33,931 nucleotides of DNA from positions 169,286-203,216 of the forward strand of contig JAJPKR010000016.1 of the NCBI GenBank assembly GCA_021323595.1, written 5' to 3'. Below the pieces are notes generated by a model. It made no database searches and was not told the origin of the DNA. It was given only the letters and a program-made list of their open reading frames with translations. The stretch comes from Terriglobia bacterium (GTDB lineage: Bacteria; Acidobacteriota; Terriglobia; Terriglobales; SCQP01). Made by a program: the position numbers and the translations under genes. Position 1 is the stretch's first letter, and every line of letters begins with the position of its first letter. Of this stretch, positions 27,876 to 33,566 are shown in pieces.

Positions 27876-28940
27876 GTGCCCGCTCTCGGCTTTGGCTGGA
27901 CGTTCCACAACGTCCACGAGGATGAGACCGGCGAATTTCTCGCCCTGCTGGCGCCGATCGCGGCCGCGCACAATGCCCGCCTGACCTGGCGCACGAGCGG
28001 CGACGGCGGGCTGCTGCTCCGCGCGGAGTTCGCCGGCGAAGAGGCCGCGCGCGCCTTCTGGCTGGAACTGCACGAGCGCTCGAACGACGCCAATTTAGCG
28101 ATGGAACTCGTCGCCGCCGACGGCGGCGACTGGCAGAGCTGGCCGCCGCGGCCGCAGGAGCCGGCGCCGCCGACGCCCGGAGAGATAGAGGCCGAGGTGC
28201 TGGCGGTCGCGGCCGGCGCGGCCGGCGCGCCCGCCGCCGGCCTGGCGCATTACCGGCCGGAGATTCCCACCGACACGATCTACGATTTGCTCCGGCAAGA
28301 CGATCCCGAACTCGACGGCAAGCTCGACGCCACCATCGCGGCGATTGACGCAGCGGGGATGCCGGTGATCAATCTGCTCAGTTATCTCGACCTGCCGCTA
28401 TTCACCGAATATGCCGCCGAGCATGAGGCAGAGCGCGACCAAAACCTCTTCCTCCATATGCTGCATACCTGGACCTGCTATCGACGCTTCGGCGCCGTTC
28501 ATGCCGCCATCTCGCCGGAGCTGGGGGAGACGCTGTCGGATCCGCGCTGGCTGCGCATCAACACGACGCAGTTTCAGTCGCCGGCGCCGGCGCTCTGCCT
28601 GCAACTGCCGGCCTGGTGGCAGACGCTGCGCGCGCCCGGCTCGCTACATTGGGTCAAGGAGATCTACGTCACGCATTGCGAGCCGCCCACGCCGGCCGAC
28701 GATCGCGAATTGACGTTCATGATCGTGACCCACGATGAGCGCGGGCAATACAGCTTCGTGCCGCTGGAGCTGCCGCTGTCGCTGCCGGGCGTGGATCAAT
28801 CCATCGAAGCCTTCTTCGCGCCCAGCCTCGAGGACGACGAACTCGGGGCCAACACCCAAGATCTCCGGCGCATTACCATCATCACCGCCGCTTATTGCCT
28901 CTACGCCTGCGCGAAAGATCCGGTGCGCTACCTGGAATAG
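27876..28940 (+). CDS. Conserved-looking protein of unknown function
   Basis: A 354-residue acidic protein starting at GTG. The frame has convincing codon use and a protein-like composition, but I do not recognise the family. The N-terminal 70 residues form an alpha/beta unit (GFGWTFHNVHEDETGEFLAL to AARAFWLELHERS). A Pro/Ala-rich linker follows at about 85-125. The larger C-terminal part has helical and strand segments (DLLRQDDPELDGKLDATIAA, NLLSYLDLPLFTEYAAEHEA, QNLFLHMLHTWTCYRRFGAV, ITIITAAYCLYACAKD). There is no signal peptide and no membrane helix, so it should be cytoplasmic. No ribosome-binding site of note precedes the GTG, and an upstream extension is blocked by a TGA, so the start is constrained. 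Confidence 0.65.
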   Translation: MPALGFGWTFHNVHEDETGEFLALLAPIAAAHNARLTWRTSGDGGLLLRAEFAGEEAARAFWLELHERSNDANLAMELVAADGGDWQSWPPRPQEPAPPTPGEIEAEVLAVAAGAAGAPAAGLAHYRPEIPTDTIYDLLRQDDPELDGKLDATIAAIDAAGMPVINLLSYLDLPLFTEYAAEHEAERDQNLFLHMLHTWTCYRRFGAVHAAISPELGETLSDPRWLRINTTQFQSPAPALCLQLPAWWQTLRAPGSLHWVKEIYVTHCEPPTPADDRELTFMIVTHDERGQYSFVPLELPLSLPGVDQSIEAFFAPSLEDDELGANTQDLRRITIITAAYCLYACAKDPVRYLE

Positions 28941-29336: not shown

Positions 29337-31367
29337 GTGCGAGTTGCCTTGCTGCTTCGTCTCGCTGCATTGCGCATCGCCTTCGCGGCTTTTGCGCTTT
29401 TTTGCTCGGTCCTGGCCGCGCCTTTGCCGCGCGCCGCGGCGCCCTGCGACATCAACGACAACGCCTGCCTGACGGCGCTGGTGACCCGCGCCAATCCGTA
29501 CCTGTGGCACAGCCTGGCGCCGCGCGCCGCCTCGGCCGTGATCGCCGCGCAAGCGAAGGACATCGGCGGCGACGTCGTCGAGCTGTACCGGCTGCGCTAC
29601 GAGGAGGTGGAGGCCAACGGCCTCTCCAGCCAAGTGGTGCAGCGGGTCTTTTATCTGCCCACGGCGGCGGGGGCGCACAGCTTCGACAACGACGATTTCT
29701 GGTACGACTCCTCGCGCTGGACGTTTCGCCTGTGGCAAGGCGTGGTGCGGCACGCGGACGGCACGAGCGGCGACATCGGCGACGCCGGCGACGCCGATCC
29801 GCACGGCCTGGGCAACCGCGCCCGCGGGCTGGCGATGCCGCCGCTGCGCGGCGGCGACGTGATCGACATCGTGTACGTGCTGACGCCGGTGGCGCCGCAA
29901 GCCTGGGCCACGCTCGGCACCGGCTATCTCGGCGATCTCTTCGCCTTCGAAGACTCCTACCCCGCCGAGCGCGTGACGTACGTGCTGCGCTCGCGCCAGC
30001 CGATCGCCGTCGCGGCGGTAGGCCTGCCGGCGGCGGCGGCGGCGAGCGAGCCGGGCGGCTGGACGCGCTATCTCTGGAGCGCCGGACCGGAGCCGGCGTA
30101 CTGGCCCGATGCCGACGGCCCCTCGATCACCGACTCGTCGCCCTACGTGCAGACGGGTAGTTTCAGCGGCTGGGGCGGACTGGTGGACTGGTATAGCGCG
30201 CGGCTGGCGGCGCGCGGCGCGCTCAGCCCGGACTTTCGCGCCCGCCTGCGCGCGATCGTGCCGCCGCAAGCAACGCCGCTGGCCACGGTGCGCGCGATCT
30301 GGAATTATCTGGCGGCGCATCTCGACTATGAAGGCGCCGAGACCGGCGTGCACGGTTTTCTGCCCGCGCCGCCGGAGGAAGTGTTTCGCGCCCGCCAAGG
30401 CGACTGCAAGGACGGGGCGCTGCTGATGGCGGCGTGGCTGCGCGCCGACGGCATCCCCGCCGACTTGGCGCTGGTGCGCACCTGGAAGATGGGCGGCGTG
30501 GCCGACGCCGCGGCCACCATCGCCGCCTTCGATCACGCCATTCTTTACGTGCCCGAGCTCGAGCTGTGGGTGGACACCACCGCGCCCAACTTGACGGTGG
30601 GCGAGCTGCCCGCCAGCGATCAAGGCGCTTTGGCGCTGGTGGTGGCGCCCGGGCAAGACCGGCTGCGGCACATTCCCGTGCTCGCCGCCGACGCCAACAC
30701 CGTGACCCGCGACATTCACCTGACGCCGCACGGCGGCGAGCAATGGGAGATGACCGGCACGATCGTCGCCACCGGCGCCAAGGCGGAGGATTGGCGCAGC
30801 GAGATCTACGCCGAGAACACCGCCGCGCTGGCGCGCTGGGTGCGCGGGTATTTCCCGCGCTCGCGGCTGCTGGCCACCAGCGCGGAACCCGGGCCGGGGG
30901 CGGTGCGCCTGCATTTTCGCGCGCTGATTCCGCGCCGCGACTTCAGCGGCGACCTGACGCTTTTCCCCGCCCGCTACGCCAACCTGCTTGCCAGCGAGCG
31001 CGAGCGCCGCGAACCCAAGCGGCTGCCGGTGCGCTGGCAAGTGACCGACCGCTGGACGCTGCCGGTCGCCGCTTGCCCGGGTCGCGCGGCCGCCGCGAGC
31101 GCCGGCGCGGGCGGCGTTGCCGATTCGCTCACGAGTCCTTTCGGCGCGCTCGCGGTCACGCGCAGTTGCGCCGCCGGCATGATGACCACGACGGTGCGCG
31201 TGACGCAAGCGGCGACCGAGATCGAGCCCGACCAATACCCGAGCTTCCGCGCCTTTTGGCGCGCCGTGGATGCGCGGCTGGCTCCCGCGTCCGGCGCGAC
31301 GCCCGTCCTCGCCGCCGCCGCGCCCACCGCCGCCGTTCCCGCATCCGCTTCTCCCGAATCGAAATAG
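29337..31367 (+). CDS. DUF3857 and transglutaminase-domain protein
   Basis: A 676-residue exported protein starting at GTG, with a signal sequence (ALRIAFAAFALFCSVLAAPL). After it comes a DUF3857-like beta domain with VVELYRLRYEEVEANGLSSQ and GGDVIDIVYVLTPVA. The transglutaminase core, about 320-420, has Cys in RQGDCKDGALLMAAWLRADG near 356, His in AFDHAILYVP near 400 and Asp in LWVDTTAPN near 413, so the triad is intact. A further beta domain with DUF3858-like character and an Ala/Pro-rich tail complete it. Such proteins are periplasmic or surface-associated cysteine-protease-fold enzymes of unknown substrate. It is the second transglutaminase-fold protein within 4 kb, on the opposite strand to the first. 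Confidence 0.88.
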   Translation: MRVALLLRLAALRIAFAAFALFCSVLAAPLPRAAAPCDINDNACLTALVTRANPYLWHSLAPRAASAVIAAQAKDIGGDVVELYRLRYEEVEANGLSSQVVQRVFYLPTAAGAHSFDNDDFWYDSSRWTFRLWQGVVRHADGTSGDIGDAGDADPHGLGNRARGLAMPPLRGGDVIDIVYVLTPVAPQAWATLGTGYLGDLFAFEDSYPAERVTYVLRSRQPIAVAAVGLPAAAAASEPGGWTRYLWSAGPEPAYWPDADGPSITDSSPYVQTGSFSGWGGLVDWYSARLAARGALSPDFRARLRAIVPPQATPLATVRAIWNYLAAHLDYEGAETGVHGFLPAPPEEVFRARQGDCKDGALLMAAWLRADGIPADLALVRTWKMGGVADAAATIAAFDHAILYVPELELWVDTTAPNLTVGELPASDQGALALVVAPGQDRLRHIPVLAADANTVTRDIHLTPHGGEQWEMTGTIVATGAKAEDWRSEIYAENTAALARWVRGYFPRSRLLATSAEPGPGAVRLHFRALIPRRDFSGDLTLFPARYANLLASERERREPKRLPVRWQVTDRWTLPVAACPGRAAAASAGAGGVADSLTSPFGALAVTRSCAAGMMTTTVRVTQAATEIEPDQYPSFRAFWRAVDARLAPASGATPVLAAAAPTAAVPASASPESK

Positions 31368-31612
31368 CCATCGCGCCGGCCTGACGTTCGGTTCTCGCAT
31401 CGGCCCTAGCGCGGCGCAGTCGCGGGGCCTCGCCTCAATCCAGCCTGGCTGGAGCGCCGCGACGATCCTTCCGGCGCCGCCGACGAGGGGCCTGGGCGGG
31501 GCGCGCGCGGTAGTCACTCTAAATTAGCGGATTAGTTTTCGCAGAGTATCGTTCGCGCGATTTGCCGGCAGATAGCCTAACGCAGTTTGCAACCGGGACA
31601 AACGAGGACACT

Positions 31613-32233
31613 ATGGCTTGGATCAAGACCGTGCCGATGGCGGAGGCGGGCGAGGCGCTGCGCCGGGCAATGGAGGCGCAGCGAGCGCTTTATCCGATCG
31701 AATACGCGACGCCGGTGCACCCTTCCGAGGGCGGCGGGGCGCAGATCGTGGAGTCGCACAGCCTGATTCCGGAAGCGCTGTTTCATGCGTTTTCGACCTT
31801 CGGCGTGCTGATGTCCGCGGGGCTGCCGCTGCAGCGGCGGCAGCACGAGATGATCGCGACGATGGTCTCGGTCACCAACCGCTGCCACTATTGAATCGAC
31901 TCGCACGCAGAGTTTCTGCGTCGGGTCACGCTGGATGAAGAGCTGGTGCGGGCGCTCGCAACCGACTATACCCAGGCCGCGCTCACGGCGGCGGAGCGGG
32001 TGATGGTGGAGTACGTCGTGCAGCTCACGAAAGACGCCACGCGGATCGGGCCGGAACACCATGAGCGGCTGCGCGCGGCCGGCTTCGACGACCAGGCGAT
32101 CTTGCAGATCACGCTGATCGCCGCCTGGTTCAACTACATCAACCGCGTCGCGGACGCGCTGGGGGTGGGGCGCGAGGGCGCGGCGACGGGCGCCGAAGCG
32201 CAGGCCGCCGGGGAAGCCGCGCCTGCCCGCTAG
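31613..32233 (+). CDS. AhpD-like peroxidase-related selenoprotein (in-frame TGA = selenocysteine)
   Basis: Read through one TGA at 31892-31894, the gene encodes 206 residues of the carboxymuconolactone-decarboxylase/AhpD fold, close to the peroxidase-related group. ATG at 31613 has GAGGA upstream. The redox motif is [16 protein letters not shown]-Sec-IDSH: C91, Sec94 and H98 take the places of the CxxC and histidine in AhpD. The frame is the same on both sides of the TGA, and the sequence after it ([37 protein letters not shown]) is normal for the family. A SECIS-like hairpin starts three bases after the TGA. The likely role is thiol/selenol-dependent peroxide reduction in the cytoplasm. A nonsense-mutated gene is the alternative and looks much less likely. 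Confidence 0.85.
31898..31927 (+). promoter_or_regulatory. SECIS-like hairpin for selenocysteine insertion
   Basis: The hairpin lies inside the coding region just after the TGA. Lower stem GACTCG (31898-31903) pairs with CGGGTC (31922-31927), including one U-G pair. A single bulged C is at 31904. Upper stem ACGCAG (31905-31910) pairs with CTGCGT (31916-31921). The five-base apical loop AGTTT (31911-31915) begins 16 bases after the TGA and has G in its second position. Bacterial SECIS elements read by SelB place the loop about 16-37 bases after UGA with a G in the first two loop positions, so this fits. Confidence 0.82.
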
Positions 32234-32264: not shown

Positions 32265-33566
32265 TTGCAGCGCCGGCTGGGGCTGGGAGCGGCGGTCGCG
32301 GCCGCCGCCGGCGAAGCCATCGGGGTCGGAATTTTTCTGACGCCGGCGGAGATGGCGCGGCAGCTGGGATCGCCCTTCTGGCTGCTGCTGGTGTGGCTGC
32401 TGATGGGCGCGATGGCGGTAACGGGCGCGCTCTGTTTCGGCGGCCTGGCGGCGTATTTTCCCGAAGCCGGCGGGACCTACGTCTATCTGCGCGAAGCATT
32501 CGGCGCGCGCACGGCATTCCTCTACGGCTGGATGCAACTGCTGGTGGTGGACCCCGGGGTGACGGCCTCGCTGGCCGCGGGGCTGGCGGCGTATGCCGCG
32601 GTGGCCGCGCGCCTGACGCCGCTGGAGCAGAAGGGGCTGGGGGTGGCGGCGATCGCGGGCTTGGCGGCGGCGAATATTCGCGGCGCCCGGCTGGGCGCGG
32701 CGTTCTTGGAGTCGCTGACGTGGCTGAAGATCGGCGCGCTGGCGCTGCTGCCGGCGTGGGCGATCGCGCTGCGGCTGGGAAGCTGGTCGCACTTCATCCC
32801 CTTCATGGCGCGGCGCGCCGCCTCCCCTCCGCTCTCGCCGGCGCTGGCGGCAAGCGCGATGGCGGCTTTCTACTCCTTCGGTGGCTGGTGGGAGGCGGCG
32901 AAGATCGCCGGGGAGGTGCGCGATCCGGAGCGGGTGATGCCGCGCGCGCTCACGCTCGGCGTGGCGGCGGTCACGCTGGTATACATCTTGGTGAGCGGCG
33001 CGTTCCTCTATCTCGTCCCCATCGGCGGCATCGAGCCGGGCTTGACGTTCATGGCGCAGGCGGGCGAACGGCTCTTCGGCGTTGCCGGGAGCGGCGTCAT
33101 GGTGGCGCTGGTGGGCTTATGCGTGCTGGGCAGCTTGGCGGCGTTGGTGATGCTGTCGCCCCGCGTCTATTTCGCGATGGCGCGGGACGGGCTGTTTTTT
33201 CACCAGGTGGCGCAGGTGCATCCGCGATTTCGAACGCCGGCGCGCGCCATCGCCGTACAGGCGGGGCTGGCCTCGCTGCTGGTCGCTCTGGGCACGTTCG
33301 AGGAGATCGTCGCGTATTTCATTTTCGCCGCGGTGTGCTTCTTGGGGCTGACCGTGGCCGGCATCTTTCGAGCACGGCGGCAAGAAACGGGAGCGCGGAT
33401 GCCGCTGCGCGTGCCAGGGTATCCGTTCACGCCGCTGGCGTTTCTCGCGCTCGTCGCCGGGTTGCTGGCGCTGCTGGCGCTGCACGATCCGCTGCAGGCA
33501 CTGTGCGGGGCGGGGGTGGTGCTGCTGGGGATTCCCGCGTTCCGGCTGGCGCGGCAGGCGCAGTGA
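32265..33566 (+). CDS. APC-family amino acid permease
   Basis: A 433-residue integral membrane protein with about twelve hydrophobic helices. The first helix region GEAIGVGIFLTPAEMARQLG carries the unwound GxGIF-type substrate site of the amino acid-polyamine-organocation superfamily. YFPEAGGTYVYLREAFG and FGGWWEAAKIAGEVRDPERV are the other conserved stretches, and the layout is that of LAT-like transporters such as YfnA. The substrate is not predictable. It starts at TTG 32265, 31 bases after the selenoprotein stop, with no visible Shine-Dalgarno; no ATG or GTG occurs upstream in frame near the domain start. It may share a transcript with the selenoprotein gene. Confidence 0.9.
   Translation: MQRRLGLGAAVAAAAGEAIGVGIFLTPAEMARQLGSPFWLLLVWLLMGAMAVTGALCFGGLAAYFPEAGGTYVYLREAFGARTAFLYGWMQLLVVDPGVTASLAAGLAAYAAVAARLTPLEQKGLGVAAIAGLAAANIRGARLGAAFLESLTWLKIGALALLPAWAIALRLGSWSHFIPFMARRAASPPLSPALAASAMAAFYSFGGWWEAAKIAGEVRDPERVMPRALTLGVAAVTLVYILVSGAFLYLVPIGGIEPGLTFMAQAGERLFGVAGSGVMVALVGLCVLGSLAALVMLSPRVYFAMARDGLFFHQVAQVHPRFRTPARAIAVQAGLASLLVALGTFEEIVAYFIFAAVCFLGLTVAGIFRARRQETGARMPLRVPGYPFTPLAFLALVAGLLALLALHDPLQALCGAGVVLLGIPAFRLARQAQ

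Follow-up and report, generated by a model that had tools for sequence, protein, structure and literature searches.

We found, in a 33,931-nt stretch of DNA from a Terriglobia bacterium of the phylum Acidobacteriota (hereafter the window), a gene that very probably encodes an AhpD-like redox enzyme with selenocysteine (Sec) as the second active-site residue, inserted under the direction of a hairpin and acting in catalysis by the route proposed below. The frame holds one internal TGA and closes with TAG at 32233, and residues 91-98 read CHYUIDSH (C91-H-Y-U94-I-D-S-H98). The initial annotation had placed the TGA at the second cysteine of an AhpD-type CxxC...H motif, in a frame running on to a normal stop, and was exact in both coordinates and motif. 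It had also anticipated that standard annotation would misread the gene; ORF calling does split it into two pieces, 31562-31894 and 31946-32233, the downstream one starting with GTG. The gene is an example of a selenoprotein split by standard ORF calling (Table 1).

Table 1. Features of the selenoprotein locus, in window coordinates.
Feature	Position	Strand	Basis
Ribosome-binding-site-like GAGGA, 4 bases 5′ of the ATG	31604..31608	+	sequence; presumed role in ribosome binding
AhpD-like selenoprotein (CMD fold, TIGR01926), 206 aa with Sec94	31613..32233	+	relatives, family model, fold model
TGA codon 94, probably read as selenocysteine (CHYU)	31892..31894	+	TGA/TGC in relatives; Cys in distant homologues
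Lower 6-bp hairpin extension (31898-31903 with 31922-31927), not conserved	31898..31927	+	folding
Conserved apical stem-loop of putative bacterial SECIS (7 bp, loop GTT), codons 98-103	31905..31921	+	synonymous conservation, folding
LAT/xCT-type APC amino acid permease, 31 bases downstream of the selenoprotein gene	32265..33566	+	PF13520/PF00324

A scan of the genome collection returned 80 near relatives, with TGA at the codon 94 column in 79 and TGC in one. Together with samples from Acidobacteriota the relatives numbered 113 sequences, or 107 once near copies were removed. The column carries TGA in 105 of these 107 non-redundant relatives, which excludes a chance occurrence of the codon, and TGC in 2; the residue is Cys in distant homologues, among them the structurally solved proteins 2pfx, 3c1l and 2oyo. 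The column is thus occupied by TGA or Cys, the pattern that the initial annotation had put forward as a check. The AhpD-type catalytic site (Glu, CxxC(U) and the His of the relay) is conserved around it, with Glu79 and His98 present in all 107 relatives and Cys91 in 106. We take Glu79, the CxxU motif and His98 to be the equivalents of the catalytic Glu, CxxC and His of Mycobacterium tuberculosis AhpD, an enzyme in which the substrate is attacked by the second Cys of the CxxC.

The hairpin noted after the TGA in the initial annotation is present, with a minimum free energy (MFE) of -19.4 kcal/mol and a z-score of -2.7 relative to dinucleotide shuffles, 3 of 200 of which were as stable. It lies 3′ of the UGA and has a G in its apical loop, as required of a bacterial SECIS. 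The apical stem (ACGCAGA-GTT-TCTGCGT) is part of the MFE structure of 103 of the 105 TGA relatives, and 4 of the 6 pairs of the lower extension form in just 23-70% of relatives. For each codon we compared synonymous-codon homozygosity with the expectation from family codon usage. Codons 98-103 (CAC GCA GAG TTT CTG CGT), which are 94-100% identical across relatives, are the six top columns of the gene, with an excess codon homozygosity of 0.43-0.70, whereas the 157 columns outside 95-107 average 0.05 and reach 0.33 at most. The 17-base hairpin sequence occurs at a single site in the host genome, and Rfam at E<=1 gave no match at the hairpin and no SECIS family. Because the apical stem is nearly invariant, covariation is unusable and the support comes from folding and synonymous-site conservation, the latter pointing to strong selection on the apical part.

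The window belongs to a contig (C49) of a 3.55 Mb assembly that is 97.6% complete. The genes on which the initial annotation had made its reading depend are all found in this genome: selA (521 bits, cut-off 268), selB (346 bits, cut-off 242), selD (351 bits, cut-off 125) and, by ARAGORN, a tRNA-Sec with anticodon TCA. At the level of sequence, comparison establishes the proposed Sec decoding, on the strength of the sel genes, the TGA/TGC/Cys column and the synonymously frozen hairpin, together with the SECIS element and the conservation of the active-site residues. The host selD (L018, contig C5:39148-40068) itself has one in-frame TGA, and hence probably encodes a Sec-containing SelD, an already known selenoprotein (PMC13188914). 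The host also encodes a second, distant AhpD-like protein (L028, contig C63:15987-16382) with an in-frame TGA in CHYU and a TIGR01926 score of 96.4 bits, above the cut-off. Elsewhere in the window, a 354-aa ORF at 27876-28940 had no Pfam match.

Among the 396 Acidobacteriota genomes examined, selA is present in 28 of the 29 with a strong family match and in 224 of the 367 without one (Fisher p = 3e-5, uncorrected for relatedness). The sole strong-match genome without selA, G027, is 99% complete; in its copy (L139), codon 94 is TGC, Thr stands in place of Cys91 and the hairpin codons are changed (CAC ACG GAG TTC CTG ACG). The gene most like a tRNA-Sec in G027 is assigned to tRNA-Ser by ARAGORN. 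TGC also stands at the Sec codon of L071, from a Latescibacterota bin, with the hairpin intact. This looks like a recent change and, since the L071 genome has selA and a tRNA-Sec, Cys can serve there. The two copies, of which L139 has lost the hairpin and L071 retains it, are natural material on the decay of a SECIS element. At a looser threshold (E<=1e-20), a selA hit was absent in 7 of 76 genomes, G027 being the one among these in which the codon was inspected. Three of nine relative-holding genomes (G411, G414 and G416, metagenomic bins whose completeness is not known) likewise had no selA hit.

The permease encoded next to the selenoprotein, a neighbour already mentioned in the initial annotation, has xCT, y+LAT and BasC as its nearest solved relatives. 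A relative of this permease adjoins the selenoprotein gene in 41 of the 113 loci, on the same strand every time, with gaps of <=200 bases in 37 loci and a median gap of 54 bases. It precedes the selenoprotein gene in 38 loci and follows it in 3, namely the window, L033 and L034, so that the order is reversed in the window's own clade with the linkage retained. In counts uncorrected for phylogeny, this retention despite altered order argues for a functional tie. In the protein tree, permease-linked rows are spread over most branches, in Acidobacteriota, Gemmatimonadota, Planctomycetota, Zixibacteria and KSB1 (at least five phyla, with the proviso that contig assignments of metagenomic bins may be erroneous), and the linkage is absent from two clades totalling 47 rows, a 36-row Terriglobia clade and an 11-row clade. 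When the other neighbours were clustered across loci, none was found in more than 15 loci and several clusters resembled antisense shadow ORFs; for the gene upstream, which has a transglutaminase domain (29337-31367), no other locus gave a match. L071 and ~10 other permease-less loci have a large same-strand gene close to the selenoprotein gene, mostly upstream, which in L071 encodes 993 aa with cytochrome-c-type CxxCH motifs. We did not find the AhpD/permease pairing in the literature searched, most subscription papers being outside its scope, and the recurring same-strand partner may be a new observation. Tentatively, the two genes could form a dedicated module across at least five phyla, the transported amino acid or disulfide being the substrate of the CxxU enzyme or protected by it.

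This neighbourhood also bears on an alternative in which Sec is inserted but the protein works mainly as a thiol-disulfide or selenenylsulfide reductase partnering the LAT/xCT-type permease, for example on imported cystine, and not a hydroperoxidase. The close, same-strand linkage that outlasts a reversal of gene order would fit such a partnership, as would the cystine/glutamate exchangers among the permease's best solved relatives and the thioredoxin-like activity credited to AhpD in the title of 1knc. However, SLC7-like permeases for many substrates score nearly as high, and the two unlinked clades have no such partner; we consider this alternative rather unlikely. That the UGA is a genuine stop between two separate proteins, or is read non-specifically as Trp, is very improbable in spite of the GTG-started downstream ORF, given that homologues without TGA have Cys at the column, never Trp, and that a synonymously frozen apical hairpin fits Sec decoding but not termination or general suppression. 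Least probable of all is a disabled gene or a sequencing error, with TGA in place of an earlier TGC or TGT and a mere fragment left, which would match the two ORFs of ordinary annotation but not the identical TGA in nearly all relatives, the almost unvarying hairpin or the Sec genes of the host. A real stop, a pseudogene, a sequencing error and Trp decoding were therefore rejected on the basis of the TGA/TGC column, the frozen hairpin codons and the sel genes, and the pattern in G027 counts against the first three as well.

In the preferred reading, that of a Sec-containing AhpD-like redox enzyme, the hairpin starting about ten bases past the UGA would be bound by SelB carrying Sec-tRNA(Sec), and Sec would be inserted at codon 94 to give a CMD-fold protein predicted to consist of helices throughout. 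Glu79 and His98 would activate Sec94 as the attacking nucleophile, and the enzyme would reduce a hydroperoxide or a disulfide, leaving a Sec94-Cys91 selenenylsulfide that a thiol donor would then reduce. We infer this chemistry, the nature of the substrate, the peroxidase role and the functional link to the adjacent permease. No substrate was found assigned to any AhpD-like selenoprotein in the literature searched, and the recurring permease neighbour offers a concrete lead to one.

An AlphaFold2 model, built from 30 family sequences with Cys replacing Sec, has a mean pLDDT of 75, with values mostly >90 in the helical core (approximately residues 70-180). Foldseek searches with this model gave 6k40, 3c1l, 2oyo, 2prr and 2pfx as best matches, M. 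tuberculosis AhpD (1knc, 1gu9) being weaker. The protein scores 111.6 bits with TIGR01926 (cut-off 81.8), and therefore belongs to a known kind. It stays below the cut-offs of TIGR00777, AhpD proper (25.5 against 191.95 bits), NF041238, AhpD_rel_CFYUT (62.4 against 175 bits), and NF053654 (46.6 against 310 bits).

The initial annotation had rightly stated that AhpD-like selenoproteins were already reported, and the selenoproteins known so far do include the 'peroxidase-related' form of TIGR01926. The 'AhpD-like protein, COG2128, CXXU' was introduced in 2005 in a Sargasso Sea survey with 27 sequences (PMC1088965), 299 'AhpD-like 1' (COG2128) proteins were counted in the GOS survey of 2008 (PMC2398784), and Table 1 of a 2026 review lists the AhpD-like selenoprotein under TIGR01926, and NF041238 with a CxxU motif (PMC13188914). 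We did not find the present branch singled out in the literature searched. With the known COG2128/TIGR01926 selenoprotein it shares the family model, the CxxU motif with Sec second and a SECIS 3′ of the UGA; it differs in being mostly from Acidobacteriota with some other phyla, and in the nearly invariant apical hairpin particular to it and the permease gene that recurs beside it. NF041238, the AhpD-related (seleno)protein CFYUT, and NF053654, the YciW-related (seleno)protein, are both AhpD-type and detectably homologous, but with scores below their cut-offs the present protein is a member of neither. The Cys-type peroxidase-related structures 2pfx, 3c1l, 2oyo and 6k40, at ~30% identity, have the same fold and the same active-site frame E...CxxC...H, with Cys where the present protein has Sec.
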